A stretch of 64,000 nt of DNA from Acarospora socialis (Eukaryota > Ascomycota > Lecanoromycetes > Acarosporales > Acarosporaceae). This document shows, in pieces, positions 13,833 to 53,705 of this stretch. The position numbers were made by a program, and so were the translations under genes. The stretch is taken from NCBI GenBank assembly GCA_025617375.2, contig JAMYGW020000012.1, forward strand, positions 1,302,001 to 1,366,000, given 5' to 3'. Under the pieces are notes generated by a model. The model had not been told where the DNA came from. It saw only the letters and a list, made by a program, of their open reading frames with translations, and did no database searches. Position 1 is the first letter of the stretch. Each line of letters starts with the position of its first letter.

Positions 13833-15778
13833 ATGTCCGGAACTGAAGCAGTTGCAGGCTTGGTGCTTGGCGTCCTCCCCTTATTAGTTGCTGCAGCAGA
13901 GCACTACAAAGACATCTTTCGACCGTTTATACGGTATCGCAAATACACCCAAGAGCTCCAGAAATTCCAGAAAGTGCTCGAGGCCCAGAAGACCATCTTC
14001 CGTAATGAGTGCCAACATTTACTGACAAGCATAACCGATTGGGAGGTGGCGAATCAGATGCTCCAGGACCGATGTCATCCCTTGTGGACAGACACCGAGA
14101 TGGACCATAAGTTTGCGCGCCAGCTTGGCAGCTCCGGCAATGCATGTGCGGCGCTGATAGCATTGATTGAAGAGAGACTCAAAGACATTGACAGGGAGAG
14201 CGAGGGATTCACTAGTGTCATTTCAAACTCTCAAAAAGTGAGCTAGAACAAAGCCCAGTCGTCCTCCTCCTGCACTGATATCTCCCCAAAGACAGACTTC
14301 TAATGGAGTCCTAGCCAGACTCCTTCTCTGCTAAAGAATGGCGTCGCTGCCTGGGAAAAAAGCTGAAGTTCAGCTTCTCCAAGTCTAGTCTCGATGAATG
14401 CGTGGCTCAGTTACGAGATCACAATCGGGATTTCGTGACGCTGTGCAGCCAGCTTGTACGAATCAAAGATGGCAATAAACTCACAGTGAAGGGGCCTGGG
14501 AGATCCGCTGATGCAGACCGGGAACTCACGAATTTTCGAGCTATACAGAGGGCCTCGGAACAGGTCTACAATGCGTTGGGACAGGCCTGCACAGTTCATA
14601 CTAGACACTCGGCACAGCTTTGCTTGGAAGCAAAACGCGTTCCTTCGAGCCGGACCCAGATCCGCTTTGACATGGCCTTCAATCATTTGGCTTTAAGCGG
14701 TTCTGCGATGTCGGTCGACCCTATTTGGTTGGCAATTGAGTCCATCAGCAGTGATTCACTAGCTGGTGGTTATTCTACCACAACTCCCAATACGCCTCGG
14801 AGGCCCTCAGACGAAATCTTATCTGAGCTCACCAAGACCCTCAAACGGCAGGAAGAAGTACCGTCACCCGTCAACACTAAGAAGCTGAAGGTCACCGGGA
14901 GTGTATTGTTAACAACCTGGAGGCCGTCAAGAGACTCCGTTGTGGCGTTTGAGCAGGGGCCGCGCCCAGAGTCTATGTTTACCCCGGACCGTCCACTTCC
15001 AGACTTGTGTACCCGGCGTAACTTTTGCGTGCAAGTTCGCAAATGCTCGGACCAATTTCGTAAGGATAGGGACGTATGCATAGGGGTTCTTGAAAGGACC
15101 AGCAACTGTCACCATGTGGTGTACCTGGCGGGCCCCAGCACCACCGATTGCGTCAAGAAACCTGTATCCCTGGAGCACCTCATCTCCCTAACGAGTAGGC
15201 CGGATCAAATAGGATCGCTACCGCAGTACGAGAAACTTCGCCTCGCCAAATTGCTGTCAGTCGGCGTCCTGCAGTTCCACGAAACACCGTGGCTCTCCTC
15301 AGGAGGTTGGCGAAGTCAAGATGTAGTCTTTTTCACTCCTGGTGGCGTTGGACCCCTCCAGAAATCAGCCCTAACCACGCCTTACTTGAACGTGCCAGTC
15401 ACCTCAGCGCAGAACAGGCAATCAACTAGCTCAGGCAAGGGTTGCTTGGCACGAAACGCACTACTTTACAGTCTCGGTGTTATCCTCCTGGAATTGGCAT
15501 ATGAGAGCCCCCTGCACAGTTTGCAGGAGCCTTGCGATCTGCAAGACAGCGGAGGAAGTCGATATACCGAGTTCTTCGCGGCCAGACGACTTAGCAAAAC
15601 GCTCGGATCGGTTTTAGGCTCAACATACGGCCAGATTGTTCGGAAGTGCTTGAACTGTGACTTCGGCTGTGGAGACGATCTCAGCGAACCGGCGTTGCAA
15701 ATAGAGTTCTATCGGGATGTTGTCTGTGAGCTGCAACGGCTCGAGGAGGGGTTCAGCAAGTTGCAACTTGGACCTTGA
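13833..15778 (+). CDS. DUF7580-type protein, pseudokinase-like C-terminus
   Basis: Fungal-only protein of unknown role. Exons 13833-14237 and 14315-15778 give 622 residues; the 77-bp intron is in phase 0. Start MSGTEAVAGLVLGVLPLLV matches the family's usual N-terminus; an ATG 57 bp upstream is also in frame. Residues ~1-140 form a helical region beginning with a hydrophobic stretch. After the intron comes KEWRRCLGKKLKFSFSKSSL. The C-terminal ~250 residues contain LRLAKLLSVGVLQFHETPWLS, then LYSLGVILLELAYESPL, which resembles kinase helix F (SxGVxLLEL); no catalytic HRD/DFG was found, so it would be a degenerate kinase fold. That reading, and a likeness of the N-terminus to HeLo-like helical domains, is inference. 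It sits between the zinc-finger gene and the STAND gene. Confidence 0.8.
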
Positions 15779-17070: not shown

Positions 17071-17192
17071 ATGTCTTTGATCTCCGTTCAATATTCTCCA
17101 TGGCGGTCAGGTAGCAGGACCAGTGATACTGAGTTAGAGTCAAGGGTCGGAAAGCACAAGTGGGTCAGGGTTAAAGAAACGTCTATCAGTAC

Positions 17193-20100
17193 TCACCTCC
17201 ACACACGCGCGCGCATATCTTCACCCGCTGTTGCGAAGAATTGGCCAGAATTGCTAACTGCAACATGGTTTACTAGAGCCAGTCAAGGGAGTCAGTCAAG
17301 CCGATGCTCTTTACCTGATGTTAGGTGCGAAACACTGTACATGGTATAAATCAAGCAGAACGATCTAGGCATTAAGAAACCAGGAAAGTTACCGGACGCT
17401 TTGTGACCTTTCAGGCGAAGGAGGGCTGTCTCATTTTTCCAATCCCAGAGTTGTACTCCACCGCTGACTGAACCGCTCAAGAGCCATGTCGTATGAGGTA
17501 TTGGAGCTGCACAAAAGACAAAGTCCTATGATGCATTAGGTTAATCTAGTCCAGACTAGCAGATGGGAAGGATGATTTTAGTATACCCTGTGGCCTTTCA
17601 GGGTTTTTACTGTCATGTTATCATCGTCGTGCGTTAGCCGAAAACCTTCCCATATCTTGACTGTCTCATCGAGGCTTGCAGAAAACAGGGCTGTGCCGTA
17701 CATATTAAACGCGACGTGATAAACGGAAGCTGTATGACCATCCAGCAGCGTCTTGTCCATACATATACCGTTTCGACCATCAGGAAGATGGGCAACCAAT
17801 TCTCCAGTCTGTGCACTCCAAATTCGAATAGATTTGTCAAAAGAGGCGCCAGCGAGGAGTAAACCGTCACTAGAGAAGGTAACTGATGTGTAACCGGCTT
17901 TATTGGGGAGCCGCAGTTCTTCTCGCCCGCTATCTGTATACCAGGTGCGTATAGTGCAGTCTCCACTTGCGCTCACTAGGTATTTCCCACTTGGAGCATA
18001 ATCTAAGTCGTAGATATCCTGCTCGTGGCCTTCGAAATTCATTGCCACGGACCGCGTTTCAAGGTCCCATAACTGATCAAAAAATCAACTTGTTTCCTTT
18101 TGCCGTCGGAAATACTATACTTACTCTTAGGAGCTTGTCTTCCCCACCCGTTGCCAGGAATTTTCCACAAGGGCTAAAGCGAAGACCTCGGACATACATG
18201 GCGTCTTCTTCATTGGACCAATTGTGCCTTAGAGTGGCTTCAGCCAATCCAGTTAACGCCTGGAAAATGTTTGCTTCCCGGTTGCATCCAAATGCGACGA
18301 ACTTGTCGTCGGGACTAAAGCAGATCGAGCAAACGACACTTTGTGACGAGAAACTGCAGACGTTGTCGAGACTGAGGTTTCGCGGGACGGCTGGGTTGTA
18401 GACAACGCCCCAATCGTGATGCAGGTCCTTGAAGTGTAGGGGGAGGTCCTCGAGGTTCAGATCAGCTAAATAATTACCAACATCGCCTATCAAGGCCTCT
18501 GCTCTTCTGGACTGTTTGTTTTGGCTATCAGAGATCGACGATTCAAGCTGAAGAAGAGAGCTATCCTGGTGCGGACTGGGGAGTCTTCCGGGCAGAAAAT
18601 CCGGTATTGAAGAGGCATCTCCTTTGTTGTGGTATTGGCGTGCATGCTGGTTCATAGCAGCTCGGGTTTTGAACGTTAGACCGAAAAACCCGCAGCCTAC
18701 TAGGGTGCATCGAAATTGTGGGATGTGGCTATCCTCATGCTTTTGGCGCAGCTCCGAAGAACCAAAGCCTTGTGTAGCACGAGGGCAACTCCGGTAGCGG
18801 CAAAGGAATGCTCCAGAACCATGATGTGCTTGAAAGTGACACAAGGGTGAATCGGTAGGATCTTCGGTTTTCATTAAGTCCTCGACGGTAATTTGATATT
18901 CCATACGCATACTTGAAAGTAAGGTAGGATCGTAGTGATTGTCTGAGCTAGCTGCACAAGGCCTTAGTATCAAGCAGGATACACAGGATACCTTGGGATG
19001 CATACAATCCGTCTTTGTAAGCAAGCCACCGCCCACAGAAGCATTTCTTCTATGGATGAATGATTTGTTGAGGAGAGTTCGCACTGCCATCGAGACACCT
19101 AACGTATTCAAGAATTCCTGTAGCTGGGTATTAGCAAGCTTGCTGTCATCTTGAATGCCATGGCCCTTCAAAGACGCTAGCTCGTTGTGGCGATCAGTGA
19201 ATGTTTCAAGACTTTGTCGCAAAGGCGACATTCCGCTTCTAGTGGTATACGAGCCCACAGGAAGGTCTGCTAAGGCTAGTAGATGGTCAAGCCAGTGGTC
19301 GTTAGCATACAGATGCAGCTCGTGTGAAAGTTGAAGAACCTTTGACCGTATGTCGTGCGAAGCAATCCGCGGATCGACAAGGTCAAGACTAGATTTCAGA
19401 TAGAGGATACAGGACAGTGACACCACAATGTGGGCTTGTGGCTGTTGTAGGATTTCAGGGGTAACCAAATTTCGGATATACCTAAGCAAAACAGACATGA
19501 TCAGTAAGGAGAGCAACAAAGATCGGCCGGAAGTAGGACTTAGCACTAACTCCAGAGCGGTGAAATGAATGAAGCTAACGACCCCACTAGGGCCATCCTC
19601 GACATCGAGAATTGGATGACACAGGCTTATAACGTCCCCTCGTGCTCTGGTTGCCTCTGTGATATGCGAGACTCGATCGTCTAGAACGATGCCACTCTCA
19701 AGTTCGTATCTTTTCAATGGCCGCTGCGCAACAGAGGTCCACTGCAAGATTCTGATGGCAGTGCGTTGGTTTGGGGACTTCGCATCTCCGCATATGCGCG
19801 ATATGATCTTCTCATAACTTGATTGTAGTTAGTTGAGCTCGGATGCTTGGCCGGTAAAGAGTTGCGCACATGGCTTCGAGATCTTCTGGAAGCGTGTTCA
19901 TCGCATCTTGTACGTGGGACTCAAAATGTAAGTCTTTTAGAGTGAACACGATCAACTTGACCCAGAGGAACATCCCTTGGACGTGTTAGCATACACCGGT
20001 GAGGAGGTTAGGGCTCCAGCCTACCATTGGCCTTTCTCAAGATTCGGGACTCCAGCTCATCGATCATGTCAGATCTGAATTGCTCGCGGAGAGGAGTAAG

Positions 20101-21946
20101 CTGGCCATGTATAAACGCAGCGATTGTAGCTTGCACATTGTCGACGTTGTCGTCTAGCCGGAGGGTTGGTTTGGCTTGTAAAAGCTTGGATATGGTAGTT
20201 AGCTTTCTGCTTGAGATCAAGAGCTTGCAAGCTCCGGGCTTAGGTGCTTTAATTCTCAGCAGATCGTCAATGACTTCTTCTTGGTCCTTTTGCGGCCATT
20301 CATCCAGGCCATCAACGACTATTCGCACCGATGGGAGCGTTGCAATCATCTTCTCGAACACCAACTGCAAGTTCCTTTTGGAGGGCCTCAGGCCATGATA
20401 TGCAAATGTTTCGAGGATATACAGCGCCATATCATTGTTCGCGACAAGAAGTTGGGCTGTAAAGCTCCGTAGAATCTCGTTCGTCTGCCTCTGAGAAGAC
20501 TGTTGATGTTGACAGAAATAAAAAATGACAGCAGTATCATTCATTTCTTGAATATGTTCTATGATTGTAGAACATATAACGCTTTTGCCTTGGCTCAAAC
20601 TTAGTACAAGCGTGTTGACGGAAACGGAGAAGCACAGGATTCTAAGCAATATCCACGTCCGCAATGGTATCCAACCTCAACCTGAGAAATAACTTGGCAG
20701 ATAGAAGCGTAACTCACCAGCTCCAGGCTTTCCGTTTAGCCAAACTACTGAGTTATCCTGGCCTCGGTCCAACCAGGACACGATCGTACGGTGCCTCAGA
20801 GCCCAGTGATCATCCGCGCCATAGCATGTTCTCGCTAGCTTTGCACATAAATCTTCCCGACCTTCCTGCTCTTCACTTGCGCCTAACCATGCAATTGCAT
20901 CTCGTACCTGACCAGCAAGTCGTTCTCGTTCTGCTCTGTCTAAATCATCAGCACGTTCCGCTCGCCACTGCCTGATCTGCTCAAGCTGCTGAGACCTCCA
21001 GGCTTTTGCCTCAGCAATGCTTATTGCATTGGCCTCCTGGTCGATCAAGTCTCGATGCCTCCTGAGACTCTCAAGTATTGCTTGAAATCGCAAGTTAAAT
21101 GTCTTCCATAGCGAATCAAAGACCATTTTCCAAGCTACACAAGCAGTTAGACTTCTTGCCATCTCAATTATCTCTAGATCACGTAAATATGACCCACCAT
21201 GCCGTCGAAAGAACTTGTACGCCCGACGATGAAATTCCAGTATGTCCGCATAGAAAAGTCCCAACACCTGCTGAAATTCTGTATCATCTTTGAATGCAGC
21301 AGAGAGCCTATCAAAGCGAGGCATCGCCTCTCCGATCATGGCGTAAGCTTCAATCAGCCTCTCGAGAGCGGAAATGTGGCCTTGAGCAATCTATACTAAC
21401 ATCGAGCGGTCAGGAAGGCGACAATAAGACCGGGGGATCATAATTTCCGTTTCATATCCAAACACCAGACACATTCGCCGTGGCTTGGATACCAAACATG
21501 CAATGTTGAAGGCTTGAAGCAGTGCAGCTTCAATTCACCGTCTCGGTAACTCAGACCTTCTCACTATACATGATTGCCCAGACAGTAAAGAACGCACTGA
21601 CCTGGAGTAGAAGCTTGATCGGTGCCTAGGTCCGGGGTCAACGTGATACACGAAAGCAAGGAAAGGACTTAGCTACCCATATAAACGCCAAATAAGGTGT
21701 CTGATTGCACAAAACCTCGATCACTTTCGAGTATTGCTCAAGTCCGGACAAGAATGATTGGATGCGGTAAAACCCCCGAAGAGATCTGCGCGACTCAAGC
21801 TTGCGCTCAATGTCTTTGGCAGCGGTCCAAACATCTTCCATGGTTGTGGATGCAAAAGAGCGCGCATCATCTTTGCTTACAGAATCTTTGAGCCGTTCGA
21901 ATGCGACGCTGAATGACAGAGGTAGCGTAGCCCCCGGGGAGGCCAT
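17193..21946 (-). CDS. DUF7708-NACHT-C2H2-WD40 STAND (NLR-like) protein, Tup1-like propeller
   Basis: Predicted signal-transducing NTPase of the fungal NLR-like class. Eleven exons: 21946-21677, 21625-21602, 21390-21198, 21134-20718, 20588-20025, 19975-19870, 19817-19551, 19481-18125, 18072-17587, 17525-17393, 17272-17193; 1298 residues, in frame throughout. Order: DUF7708-like helical N-terminus (YRIQSFLSGLEQYSKVIEVL, then APIKLLLQ in a 24-bp exon); NACHT with Walker A GKPGAGKS (~296-303) split by an intron, Walker B-like VRIVVDGLDEWP, and LLISSRK; two C2H2-like fingers (~839-899); and a seven-blade WD40 region (~970-1298). The WD40 part tracks Tup1/TupA: DWGVVYNP, VVCSICFSPDDKFVAFGCNR, LATGGEDKLLR, FEGHEQDIYDLDYAPSG, LKGHRDFV, VQLWD, then FFATAGEDMRARVW at the end. 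The stop after VWR is the likely end. Head to head with a SNF2 gene. Confidence 0.85.
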
Positions 21947-22409: not shown

Positions 22410-25400
22410 ATGGCTGGGTGGGGGCAGAACTGCAGGCCATCCAAACGAATCCGCTTAGACAATGTCGATAAAACCTGTGTTCGTTTGAGCAACTCTCAAG
22501 ATGAAATACTATATGAAAGGCATTCTGGATATAGTCATGGCTTTCACAACCCCACCGAATCACAGTCGACGTCGACCCCAAGTGAAGCAGGAGGGTTGAC
22601 TCCACTCACTCGGCATCATGGTACCCACCAACACTTGACCACCAAGACCCACGTCACACACTTCGTAACGAACGCTCAGCATACTGCTGAAGAAACCAGA
22701 GGCGCCGTGACTACTGGCAATCTACCTGTTTTGGATGGCACGTTTGGCGAATCTCGGCCCAGTGGCCACCATGGGCTCCGAGACACAGGTGTTGTGGATC
22801 AAGTATGCTTTGGCATGGTGCGTCTTTCCTGTTTACATCCCTTGTTTACCTATCATCGGATAAAGCTCATCAGGACTCATGTAGCTTGATAACATTCCTG
22901 TCCAAGTATTGCAATCCACCGGTCTGGACCTGACTGCTGCCTCCATCTCAGTCATTTTTACGACAGTCTCGAAGACTCTGCAGCTCCAGACCGCCGCAGG
23001 CTCTGTGCTTGGAAGCCTTGATCCACGCTATTCTAAGTTGCTCCAGGTTTTGCAAAAAGCACAAGAAATTGAGTTGCAGGCATACCTGATACCCACTCTC
23101 TCCCGAAACCCTAGTCACGGTCGATCCCAACAGCCAGACACACAGGCAGCGCGACAGCGGAATGAGTCAGTGACGTTATCGGTAATATTGTACGGGTCCA
23201 TTGACGTATTCGAATCAATCGGCGAATTTCTGTCGCATTGCTCGGAATATCTTCAATCTCCTCTGCGCTGCAATCGTAACGTTCCTTACCGCAACCCACA
23301 GAGTCTTTCCGGAAGAGATGAAGAAACCCCCTTGACATTTCAGCTCGAAGCGGATCTCTCATCCTCCCAAATTGAGACGATAGCTCAAGGCAGCGATCCA
23401 TCTGCTGCCCTGGAAACCAAATGCACTTTCCCGGAAATAGAAGCACCACCTGCTGTTCGAACTTGCCTTTATAGGTCAGCGTACAAGGGTCTTGAAGGAC
23501 ATGAGCCTCAACTGACTTTTCTAGTCATCAAAAGCAGGCCTTGTCGTTCATGTTAAAGAGGGAACAGGGCTGGGATCTCTATAGCGACCGAGACGATATC
23601 TGGAAGGCTGCTCCTAGTGAACCTAATGGGATTACTAGGTAAGTCTTGCTTGACCCTGGCTTGAGCATGTCGGAAATGGGACTCTCATCATTTCCAAGGT
23701 ACTACAACACAGTGACGGGAGACGTCTCAGTTTACCGCCCTAGGGCATTCCGAGGAGGCATTCTCGCGGACTCTATGGGGCTAGGCAAATCGTTAACCGT
23801 GATTTCGTTGCTAGCGACGGACTGGTCAGAACACGTCCAAAAGTCGATAGGAGTTCCGCCAACGCTTCTGGTCGTACCACTCTCACTGCTTCGAACGTGG
23901 GAAGAAGAACTCGAAAGACATCTTTATCCACAAACCCTTCGCTGCTTGAGATATCACGGGCCGAAGCGCACTAATGATCTTGCCACAATGCTCTCGCACG
24001 ACATCGTGCTTACAACGTATGATCTAGTGGCTTCACAATGGCGGACTCTCGAGAAGGGACCAAAACTTCTCTTTTCTACGACCTGGCGTCGCATTGTACT
24101 AGATGAAGGTAAGCAACATTCTCAGGCGACCAAGTGAGCAAGCCAAATTAACTTAAATTTACAGCCCATGAGATTCGTACTGGCACTATCGAAAAGGCTA
24201 AAGCGGTGTGTGCTCTTCGAGGAGACTTGCGATGGGCTGTATCCGGCACTCCCATACAAAACCGATGGGAAGATCTTGCCGGGCTGCTCGGTTTCCTCAA
24301 AGTGTACCCCGATGGTGACATAAGATCACTCAAGGCCATGCTGAGAACCAACGCAACAAACTTACAGGTGAGGCGTATGCTCGCCTTGCTATGCCTTCGA
24401 CGATCCAAGAAGACGATAAAACTTCCTCGTCGGATTGATAAGATACATATAGTGAGGTTCGATGCCGACGAAGCTATTCAGTATAATATCTTGAATAAGT
24501 CCATCTCAGGCTATCTCCAACAAGAAAGTTTGCATGAACACGTTGGGACTTACTCCAACATATTATCCAAGATCAATTCACTCCGACAAATGTGTAACCT
24601 TGGTACATATTTTCAAAGGGAGTTACATACGCCTGTGGGGTCTGGGACCCGTGATGCTGGGGTGCAAGGCCTCTTTGATGGGATGTTATCGGCAGGGCTT
24701 GCTATGTGCTCTATTTGCAATCGAGACTTGTCGACGGGGGACGATGGTAATGAGTGGCCACTTGCGGACACTGACGCCTCTGAAGCATCTCAGCCCCGCT
24801 TAACGACATGCGGTGAACTCATCTGCGCCTCCTGCTTCACGCCTTCCAAGATCGCGACGCGCCCTAAGGATCGAAGATGCCAACATCAGCCCTCATGCGA
24901 ATTCTTTGCCGTCACTCTCTTTAGCTCTTTCACCGCTCCAACATTCCACGCCGTATCTCGCCTACCGGTCAAGATGCGGGCGTTGCAGAAGGATCTTGTG
25001 GCTTTGCCGGAGACAGACAAGAGGTAAGTGATCTATCCTGTATGACAAGGTCGCTCTCAAACTTCTTCAAGTATCATCTTTTCGTTCTGGACTACAACTC
25101 TGAATCTCGTCGGGAGCGCACTCAACGAACTCCGACTTCCCTATACCCGCGTCGACGGGACCATGCCTGTTAAGCAGCGGCAGCAGGCTCTTACGTCTTT
25201 TATCGAAGACTCTCACGTTCGGGTACTTTTGATATCTCTCCGTTGTGGGTCAAATGGGTGGGCAGAGCTTGCAACTTTCGTGGTTCTAGTCGCCGCTAAT
25301 ACCTCTAGGCTAACATTAACGGCTGCAAACCACGTTTTCCTCATGGAGCCCCAGTGGAACCCCATGCTAGAGGATCAAGCCCTTGACCGCGTGTACAGAA

Positions 25401-52097: not shown

Positions 52098-53705
52098 TCA
52101 TAGACCCGAAGGCACACACGACCAACTACACCCCCTCCTCAACAACGGCGCTCCCCACCAATCATCGATCCCACCCTTTCGACCCTCACACTCCGGCACG
52201 CAATCCCACCACTCCACCCACTCCGTCCTCGCAACGATGAATTCCCTCCCGCAAATAGAGCATTTGTGCCCGCCAGCGTTTTTGATCGAGAGGGCGATGG
52301 TTAGAAGGCGAGTTACGGACTCCGGACTGTCGGGTGGTAACAGGTCGGAGAGGTGCTGGAGGTAAGGAGAGCGACTGCATTCGCGGAGGGCGAGTTCGAG
52401 GAGGGAAGGGACGAGCGAAGGGGGTGTGGGGAGGGGCGGAACGGCGTGCGGAGACTTTGGAGCGTGAAGGCGCAGATGGGAGGAGTCGGGCGCTGTTGAA
52501 GGTGGTGGGGGTGTGTGGCGGACTGGTGAGCCGTCGATGTGTAGGAATGTGGTGGCGGTAGATGCTAGGAAGGTTGGTCTCCATAACTGGGGCGTGATGC
52601 CATCCGTATGAGCGGTCGAGCTAGTTGGGGCTTTGGAAGTAGCATTAGTTGCACTGGAGTGCTCTTCCAAAGACCTGTCGGGAATGTTGAAGAATGGATT
52701 CGGATAGATGTTCAAGATCCTCAGCCGCTGTTTGACGAGCTTGAGAATCTCCCAAGGTAGCCATCTTAGCTTATTGATGCCGATATTGAGTTCGACAAGA
52801 TTCTCCAGATCGCCAATCACAGGCGGTAGTTCGGTTAGTTTGTTGTTCCGCAAGCTGAGCACCGTCAAATGCTTTAAAGTGAATAGTTCACCGGGAAGGA
52901 TCCGCAGCGCGTTGCGCGAAAGGTAGAGGTGGAGGGATGGGGTTAGGGGGCTGTATGCTTCTTGGCTAGGGGGATGATGGTCGACGCCCAAGTGAGCCTT
53001 GGTGAGGTAGCGAAGAGGTCGAAGTGTATCTGCAGAGATTCTCTCGAGCTTCAATTCCCTGTCGAATGGTTAGCTGGTCGCTTTGTTGGCTGAGGATGGT
53101 GCTCACGAGAGGTCGGCTATCTCGCGACTTTCATCAAGACACAGCTGTATAATCTGGTCCGCACGGTTCTCTGGGTCGGCTCCGGCAGCGTCAAGGGTGT
53201 ATGGATGCTCTGCACTGCACTCCGTTGCTCGATGGAACACGGAGTTAGCGGCGTCCGTTCTGTGGGCTGCTGGCAGTGTATCCTCGTCGAGAGTACGCTT
53301 CAGTGGCCTCCACATTGGCAAACGATCATCAGGCTCCAGCTTGTAGTCTTCATCCAAACTCAAGTCCGTATCCTCACTCCCCATCCACACACCGCTATCT
53401 ACCGCCCTCTCGAGCTTTCTCTCGCGCCGAGTTACTCGCACAGCTTCCTCAACGGTGCCGCAAGAAGCCTTTGCGCCCCACCATGTTCCGGGGTAAAGAC
53501 GTTTCTTTCTCTTGTGTACATAGTTCTCCGACGAAGGCGGCAAGTCATCGCTGGAGAAAAGAGGTGGGTCGCTTGATGATAGGATGTCAAAGTCTTGCGT
53601 CCGTTTGCGCCCAGTTGCGCCAATGTTCGGACGGTGGACTAGGGAAGGAAGGGATAGTGGAAGGAAAGATTCTGTAGGCGGGATGTCTTCAGCTTCAGGC
53701 ACCAT
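52098..53705 (-). CDS. Leucine-rich repeat protein with C-terminal CxxC motif
   Basis: Conserved fungal LRR protein of unknown function. Exons 53705-53107 and 53058-52098 give 519 residues. N-terminal ~200 residues: disordered, acidic/Ser-rich with DFDILSSSDPPLFSSDDLP and KRLYPGTWWG, which I recall in other ascomycete homologues. The repeats (about 230-320) read LHLYLSRNALRILPGELF, LTVLSLRNNKLTELPPVIG, LVELNIGINKLRWLPWEIL, RLRILNIYPNPF. A Pro/Ser-rich linker follows, then LLELALRECSR and a zinc-like CSICGREFIVART near the C-terminus. The open frame extends 48 codons upstream of the chosen ATG (to 53849); MVPEAEDIPP is preferred because homologues start near there. Function unassigned. Confidence 0.85.

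Follow-up and report, generated by a model that had tools for sequence, protein, structure and literature searches.

NOD-like receptors (NLRs) of plants that carry extra domains, such as RRS1 with its WRKY domain, are integrated decoys, and the integrated domains of plant NLRs are often related to transcription. In fungi, the HET-E and HET-D receptors pair a NACHT switch with a WD propeller at the C-terminus. The available text of PMC12258605 describes the capture of the CHK-2 kinase by T-NACHT NLRs of the Sordariales (Chaetomiaceae/Podosporaceae), proposes the kinase as an integrated decoy, and regards zinc fingers and SPRY domains as likely sensors. In the available part of PMC5658179, a zinc finger of a Podospora NLR is also proposed as an integrated decoy. 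Here, we describe a gene—hereafter called NLR-Tup1—in a 64,000-nucleotide stretch of Acarospora socialis DNA (contig JAMYGW020000012.1, positions 1,302,001 to 1,366,000; hereafter called the window), in which an NLR has almost certainly captured the propeller of the general corepressor Tup1, as judged from identity, introns and trees.

The gene resembles these systems in part. Like the CHK-2 NLRs, it places a domain of a single-copy host regulator at the C-terminus of a NACHT NLR, where a decoy role is proposed. Unlike the CHK-2 case, for which the available text of PMC12258605 infers one integration from the nucleotide-binding domain tree, the source is a general corepressor, introns are shared with the source gene, and the analysis supports two captures or more. 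NLR-Tup1 shares the NACHT switch and the C-terminal WD propeller with HET-E and HET-D, while DUF7708 replaces the HET domain and a propeller of Tup1 descent takes the place of near-identical repeats. Compared with Tup1 itself (TupA, RcoA or rco-1), the NLR contains the whole C-terminal propeller, a linker of 23 amino acids, three intron positions, the DWxxxxNP entry and the GCNR motif, whereas DUF7708, NACHT and C2H2 domains stand in place of Tup_N and the Q/P-rich middle. As in the plant receptors, an exchangeable extra domain is copied from a transcription-related host protein, and here the source gene is still present; the fungal protein differs in having NACHT instead of NB-ARC, and its decoy function is putative. 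Finally, Arabidopsis SNC1 is linked to TPR1, a TOPLESS (Groucho/Tup1-type) corepressor, which is a separate partner in the available text of PMC7935258, while in NLR-Tup1 the propeller is built in and the repression part is missing.

NLR-Tup1 lies on the minus strand and runs from the ATG at 21946 to the TGA at 17193, with nine exons encoding 1342 amino acids (Table 1). The exon model was built from GT/AG splice sites, using the sequence alone; every splice site is GT/AG, and no stop codon or frameshift is required. These limits agree with those of the preliminary description (17193..21946), while its length of about 1298 residues is corrected to 1342 with the addition of a microexon. Exon 6, with 1693 nucleotides, is open over 564 codons (chance about 2e-12, assuming uniform codons), and it covers the NACHT arm, the fingers and the first blades. 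Therefore, these parts belong to one gene, and the fusion is independent of any splice decision. The C-terminus is uncertain (17193 or 17107), as a GTGAGT donor after the last Trp could lead to an ending at 17107; own Tup1—the Tup1 of the same genome—also has a donor there.

The domain order is DUF7708, NACHT/NPHP3_N, STAND (signal transduction ATPase with numerous domains) arm, two C2H2 fingers and WD40 propeller. The Pfam scan, which covered residues 1-1113, detected DUF7708 (57.7 bits against a cut-off of 25), NPHP3_N (117.7 against 24.8), NACHT (34.9 against 26.7) and WD40 (41.3 against 27). The P-loop GKPGAGKS is located at residue 318, the Walker B motif VDGLDE at 414, and the fingers at residues 885-910 and 916-942, in agreement with the N-terminus, NACHT domain and fingers reported in the preliminary description. 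By this domain make-up, the protein is a fungal NLR-type STAND receptor. DUF7708 holds the N-terminal place, the effector position of NLRs, and would act as the effector domain; among solved structures, it has no convincing relative (best E 0.35). The winged helix GPIID_WHD (PF22939), which many relatives have and which is a weak membership feature, is not among the Pfam matches of NLR residues 1-1113 at E 0.01.

Where does the propeller come from? In the genome (31.1 Mb, 38 contigs), the propeller has one other end-to-end match, which is own Tup1 at C11:977238-979661 (coordinates without its last exon). Own Tup1 is composed of Tup_N (PF08581, 69 bits), a Q/P-rich middle and a propeller, and is the sister of five Lecanoromycete Tup1 rows (98/93), a position that points to a probable lichen-forming or related fungus. 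NLR residues 991-1341 are 43% identical to it over 357 columns (288 bits), and the remaining WD matches in the genome search have at most 41% identity over shorter stretches. Moreover, three introns coincide between the two genes: one after EDKLLR (EDKLIR in Tup1), in phase 0; one after GHR (GHK) and before DFV, in phase 0; and one within the codon after GHKAS (GHKNS), in phase 1. The exons between them measure 486 and 133 nucleotides in the NLR and 471 and 133 in Tup1. Three exact coincidences would occur by chance at about 6e-9, a rough figure that takes the sites as random. The shared linker, together with three introns of the same position and phase, thus indicates that the NLR took a genomic, DNA-level piece of a Tup1 gene.

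The captured piece seems to have a sharp border. P0121, a relative from Usnea with 53% identity over 988 amino acids, tracks the window protein for about 45 residues past the fingers, and diverges where the Tup1 linker starts. Tup_N (PF08581) is not among the Pfam matches of NLR residues 1-1113; by the sequence comparison, the N-terminal half of Tup1, which serves in Cyc8 binding and tetramerisation, is not part of the capture. Among the best 60 of 675 matches to solved structures, only yeast Tup1 (1erj) and the dynein-tail entry chain 5afu_3 align with the whole propeller as one stretch, whereas the repetitive WD proteins 2ymu and 7bie score slightly higher, but summed over several stretches.

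The preliminary description had assigned the propeller to the Tup1 type, rather than to the near-identical HET-E/NWD repeats, and this assignment holds. Each of the seven motifs that it listed occurs in the protein, the first (DWGVVYNP) at 1014 and the last (DMRARVW) at 1335. We constructed the tree with Tup1 orthologues that it had proposed, using 53 rows: own Tup1 together with 29 of the 120 listed Tup1 orthologues, three Tup1-like propellers from basidiomycetes, 17 propellers of NLRs and three of ordinary fungal WD proteins. The NLR propellers group with Tup1, and together they are split from the three ordinary propellers with 100/100 support. Whether ordinary WD proteins are the best matches, a point that the preliminary description had raised against a Tup1 origin, depends on the score. 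In the raw propeller search (best 120 of 5874 matches), ordinary long WD proteins top the summed-score ranking, which we did not use for kinship, as long repetitive WD proteins accumulate score across their repeats. In single alignments, the best score of the window propeller is 297 bits with the 120 listed Tup1 orthologues, compared with 161 bits for ordinary WD proteins, the latter figure setting aside P0057, which has two Tup1-like propellers (209 bits). The single-alignment scores, the tree and the shared introns thus reject an ordinary WD40 origin. In addition, the blades of the window propeller, cut by hand, are at most 39% identical to each other, and the propeller contains no direct DNA repeats of 30 nucleotides or more. 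P0057 itself, from the basidiomycete Marasmius sp., has a protein kinase followed by its two propellers, and is another, separate use of the Tup1 propeller.

The DUF7708-NACHT-C2H2-Tup1 architecture recurs in the family and is, by the sequences compared, not a one-off. Among the relatives (the best 120 of 179 found with NLR residues 1-1010), 20 have a blast match to Tup1 or to the NLR propeller, with P0225 and P0235 matching weakly (23-24% identity). Tup1 propellers are present in 18 of the 120 (12 full, four truncated and two short), and each of the 18 finds a better match in own Tup1 than in the window propeller. One separate case is Sclerotinia nivalis P0126, the propeller of which is 68-73% identical to nine Leotiomycete Tup1s and 60-65% identical to the four others compared. 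It nests within Leotiomycete Tup1 (99/96, 99/90), with slightly lower support in a second tree (94/92, 94/85). A single capture for all 17 NLR propellers is rejected (approximately unbiased test, p 0.011). Tup1 was therefore probably captured at least twice, and the comparison supports its uptake more than once by the same NLR scaffold.

We also placed the propeller sets one at a time, with four of the ten Xylariales rows and without the NLR rows P0188, P0190, P0164, P0194, P0153, P0156 and P0197 and the Tup1 row P0298. Four sets (window, Chaetothyriales, Xylariales and Sclerotinia) then fall inside Pezizomycotina Tup1, with the Xylariales set closest to a Xylariaceae Tup1, and the Fusarium pair falls just beyond it. 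Only for the Chaetothyriales is a position outside Pezizomycotina Tup1 rejected (p 0.03); the window (0.38) and Xylariales (0.39) sets do not reject it. In the full tree, the window propeller lies outside the Dikarya Tup1 rows, while in the tree without the other NLR rows it lies inside Pezizomycotina Tup1, beside the Pezizales; its capture from a Lecanoromycete Tup1 is not rejected (p 0.35). Because of long branches, the number of captures beyond two stays uncertain. In the scaffold tree (the window and 77 of the 78 relatives P0121-P0198, P0197 being below the coverage set; a simple LG+G4 model), the Tup1 tail appears in six separate places, with six changes needed and five of them forced by the starred branches. 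Beyond two captures, losses may also have shaped this distribution. The three nearest relatives of the window protein, P0121-P0123 (Usnea, Alectoria), are annotated without a propeller, a statement that covers annotated proteins only, two of which are short (740 and 830 amino acids).

Next, we compared the ligand face of the propellers. The face positions are picked by the R1, R1-2 and D-1 rule of WD40 domains, and the 21 top-face positions used here are each 97-100% invariant among 30 Tup1 rows. The Tup1-specific set consists of 77 Tup1-invariant columns absent from all three ordinary WD controls, 16 of which are on the face. The window propeller retains 11 of these 16 residues, against 21 of the 61 others (p 0.021; this and the following p values are uncorrected). 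The Sclerotinia copy retains 12/16 on the face and 45/61 elsewhere, and Xylariaceae P0152 retains 8/12 against 16/54 (p 0.022). The opposite pattern occurs in Phialophora (2/16 against 26/61, p 0.039) and Fusarium flagelliforme (1/16 against 20/61, p 0.055). Besides the window and Sclerotinia, 13 of the 15 further NLR rows hold less than half of the Tup1-specific face, and the other 12 NLR rows have no difference between the face and the other residues at p 0.05. The ordinary WD controls have one or two of 17-18 face residues. This pattern fits a recognisable bait that was kept in some lineages, and a surface that may have been re-used in others.

The C-terminus of the NLR family is exchangeable, and its readable tails are, from their sequences, often chromatin- or transcription-like. 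We scanned with Pfam the tails of two own-genome paralogues and of 19 of the 120 listed relatives, which were picked by eye from their tails, so that no rate can be derived. The domains above the cut-off are a bromodomain with FHA (P0140), Zn2Cys6 (P0170) and Myb with DUF7896 (the own-genome paralogue L041), and those just under it are PHD in P0125 and P0134, PHD_5 in P0124 and WW in P0142. The best solved match of the P0125 PHD is SET domain-containing protein 3, which we take to be yeast Set3. The tail of P0180 (Ilyonectria) has a Med15 match well under the cut-off (15.1 bits against 25.2), P0161 contains part of a propeller, and ankyrin tails are also present in the Pfam lists of the family. 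In ten of the 19 scanned relatives, no tail domain could be recognised. A Med15 KIX reading of the P0163 tail (Alternaria) depends on a match likewise well under the cut-off (16.6 bits against 25.6), and no solved structure matched this tail at E 1. An ELL-like elongation-factor reading, made by eye for two other tails, lacked Pfam support and was dropped.

Several further features of the family were observed. L041 (C2:3206000-3212500, minus strand) is a DUF7708-NACHT-C2H2 paralogue with 27% identity over residues 98-954 and an open frame of 1435 amino acids. L040 (C6:142500-149500, plus strand) is a DUF7708-NACHT protein with an open frame of 1578 amino acids, and its long C-terminus, which has no Pfam match, is by eye perhaps a diverged propeller. 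By eye, the tails of P0123, P0142 and P0170 have in common a DYQMxLMLLEQQNKKRLxMARQEQ-type motif. In the tails of P0144, P0151, P0170, P0173 and P0182, patches that are acidic and rich in Phe (FDFDSFL type) resemble transactivation segments, again by eye only.

What would a receptor gain from this propeller? In the available part of PMC10163088, the WD40 part of yeast Tup1 alone binds repressors, while residues 1-339 contact Cyc8, mediator and histones; the Tup1 middle region is required for repression, according to the available text of PMC2882346. The NLR took only the partner-bound half of Tup1, and a bait or sensor therefore fits better than a built-in repressor. We propose that NLR-Tup1 is an NLR with an integrated Tup1 propeller as its bait, a functional reading to which we give about an even chance. 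If the Tup1 propeller were bound or damaged, whether by an effector (from a mycoparasite, bacterium, virus or selfish element) or by a Tup1 partner that has been displaced, the same agent would also engage the copy in the NLR. This engagement would release the NACHT switch, and the released receptors would then assemble. Subsequently, the DUF7708 end would trigger either cell death or a nuclear alarm as the probable response. Through its C2H2 fingers, the receptor may stay on chromatin, near the usual site of the bait. The repeated captures suggest that something attacking fungi targets Tup1. Together, the repeated capture, the lost N-terminal half and the kept ligand face strengthen the decoy idea of the preliminary description, short of showing it.

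Several results weigh against this proposal. No effector directed at fungal Tup1 came up in the one search aimed at it, on Tup1 and mycoviruses, nor in the other literature results, which fall short of a full search. The window propeller, which has a very long branch, may have lost Tup1 binding. Of seven ligand-contact residues of yeast Tup1, three (S448, L542 and N673) are altered in it. The p value of its face is one among 17 NLR rows, and would be lost under correction for all of them. In addition, the Tup1-specific test was devised after a first, broader test of all Tup1-invariant columns, many of which are common to ordinary WD proteins, and that broader test was non-significant for the window (16/21 against 100/176, p 0.10). 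When Sclerotinia is left out, the 16 remaining propellers do not reject one shared origin (p 0.096), and in a tree that has Sclerotinia as its sole NLR row, a position outside Pezizomycotina Tup1 is likewise not rejected (p 0.11).

These points leave room for other explanations. The propeller may serve an output onto transcription, in a nuclear STAND regulator whose fingers bind DNA and whose propeller docks on DNA-bound repressors or competes with real Tup1, so that NACHT activation alters expression and other members act likewise with other transcription modules. The bromodomain with FHA, the Zn2Cys6 and the sub-cut-off PHD tails of the relatives, the Myb with DUF7896 of the L041 paralogue, and the acidic patches seen by eye in several tails point in this direction, as does SNC1, which works through the TOPLESS-class TPR1 in the available text of PMC7935258. 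However, the captured half is the repressor-bound half and not the repressing one, and ten of the 19 scanned relatives lack a recognisable tail domain. The theme itself cannot separate the two readings, for the integrated domains of plants share it. We consider an output onto transcription unlikely, though deserving of serious attention. A somewhat fainter prospect is that the Tup1 origin became irrelevant after the capture, and that the propeller, as a plain WD40 recognition platform, diversified for non-self ligands like other NLR sensors. The eroded Tup1-specific faces of most further NLR rows, such as Phialophora and Fusarium flagelliforme, would be expected from such a platform, and WD surfaces of the HET-E type hold residues under diversifying selection in the available part of PMC1805685. 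Yet the window, Sclerotinia and P0152 copies retain the face, the window blades lack internal homogenisation, and the repeated choice of Tup1 is left unexplained.

The gene could also be an artefact or a decayed copy, produced by misjoined neighbours, misassembly or pseudogenisation. Its splice model is a prediction, and the propeller is missing from the annotation of its three nearest relatives, P0121-P0123. On the other hand, the 1693-nucleotide exon crosses the junction, the GT/AG sites are complete with an intact frame, and the Tup1 propeller follows the same scaffold in the 18 listed relatives, in other genomes; we therefore regard an artefact as highly improbable. The integrated Tup1 bait thus remains our best explanation. 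Its extension to the family, in which a widespread DUF7708-NACHT-C2H2 group of NLRs acts at chromatin and its exchangeable sensor end repeatedly captures the cell's own transcription or corepressor pieces as baits (Tup1 several times; bromodomain, PHD, Zn2Cys6, Myb and perhaps Med15), is tentative, and we would sooner expect it to fail than to hold.

In the literature searched, which included no preprints and few subscription papers, no result pointed to an NLR-Tup1 fusion. The available part of PMC1805685 uses Tup1 for structural comparison and has it in the reference list, a text search of the available PMC12258605 did not find Tup1, and both Tup1 and zinc finger are absent from the text of the survey PMC4986451.

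The surroundings of NLR-Tup1 in the window contain further genes. A DUF7580 gene (14315-15778, plus strand; 72 bits) lies about 1.4 kb beyond the 3′ end. A gene at 22410-25027 (plus strand; start at 22410 guessed by eye) diverges about 0.5 kb upstream, with an SNF2-related domain in the frame 24152-25027, and is followed by genes for siroheme synthase and coatomer gamma. An open frame at 52098-53069 (minus strand) has leucine-rich repeats, and is of interest because the survey PMC4986451, in its available text, found no such motifs in fungal NLRs.

Table 1. Coordinates of NLR-Tup1 and its parts in the window
Feature	Position	Strand	Basis or remark
Whole NLR-Tup1 coding region	17193..21946	-	GT/AG splice model with open frame; relatives with the same domain order
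Exon 1: start codon, N-terminal part of DUF7708 region	21677..21946	-	
Exon 2: 24-nucleotide microexon encoding APIKLLLQ	21602..21625	-	Family consensus here WAPIKLML
Exon 3: remaining DUF7708, linker, NACHT start including GKPGAG	20718..21390	-	
Exon 4: NACHT/NPHP3_N body including VDGLDE	20025..20588	-	
Exon 5	19870..19975	-	
Exon 6: one open frame with the STAND arm, both C2H2 fingers, the linker captured from Tup1 and blades 1-2	18125..19817	-	
Exon 7: last part of blade 2 through blade 5; each border coincides with a Tup1 intron position	17587..18072	-	
Exon 8: blade 6; 133 nucleotides, equal to the homologous exon of own Tup1	17393..17525	-	
Exon 9: blade 7 with the C-terminus; may end at 17107 instead	17193..17272	-	
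DUF7708 match, residues 62-161, exons 1-3	21202..21763	-	Pfam
NACHT/NPHP3_N match, residues 293-450, exons 3-4	20206..20808	-	Pfam
Two C2H2 zinc fingers, residues 885-942	18629..18802	-	Zinc ligands (nearly) invariant in the 46-row family alignment
Captured Tup1 segment: linker of 23 amino acids (DVGNYLADL...) and complete seven-bladed propeller	17193..18484	-	Identity, shared introns, border against the Usnea relative

In plants, integrated domains led to the real targets of effectors, and a single NLR scaffold that takes up the same host gene repeatedly is the type of sign that led there. In fungi, Tup1/rco-1 is needed for hyphal fusion in Neurospora, according to the available text of PMC3068686, and a Tup1 bait would tie this fusion factor to fungal immunity. 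The available part of PMC5658179 treats it as largely open whether fungal NLRs act against other organisms and which sensors they would use. The captured propeller of a well-mapped corepressor would be a defined bait, and the proteins of mycoparasites, endobacteria, mycoviruses and rival fungi could be screened against one known surface. If the exchangeable-bait view of the family is true, parasites or selfish elements of fungi hit the Tup1 hub often enough to select the same defence repeatedly.

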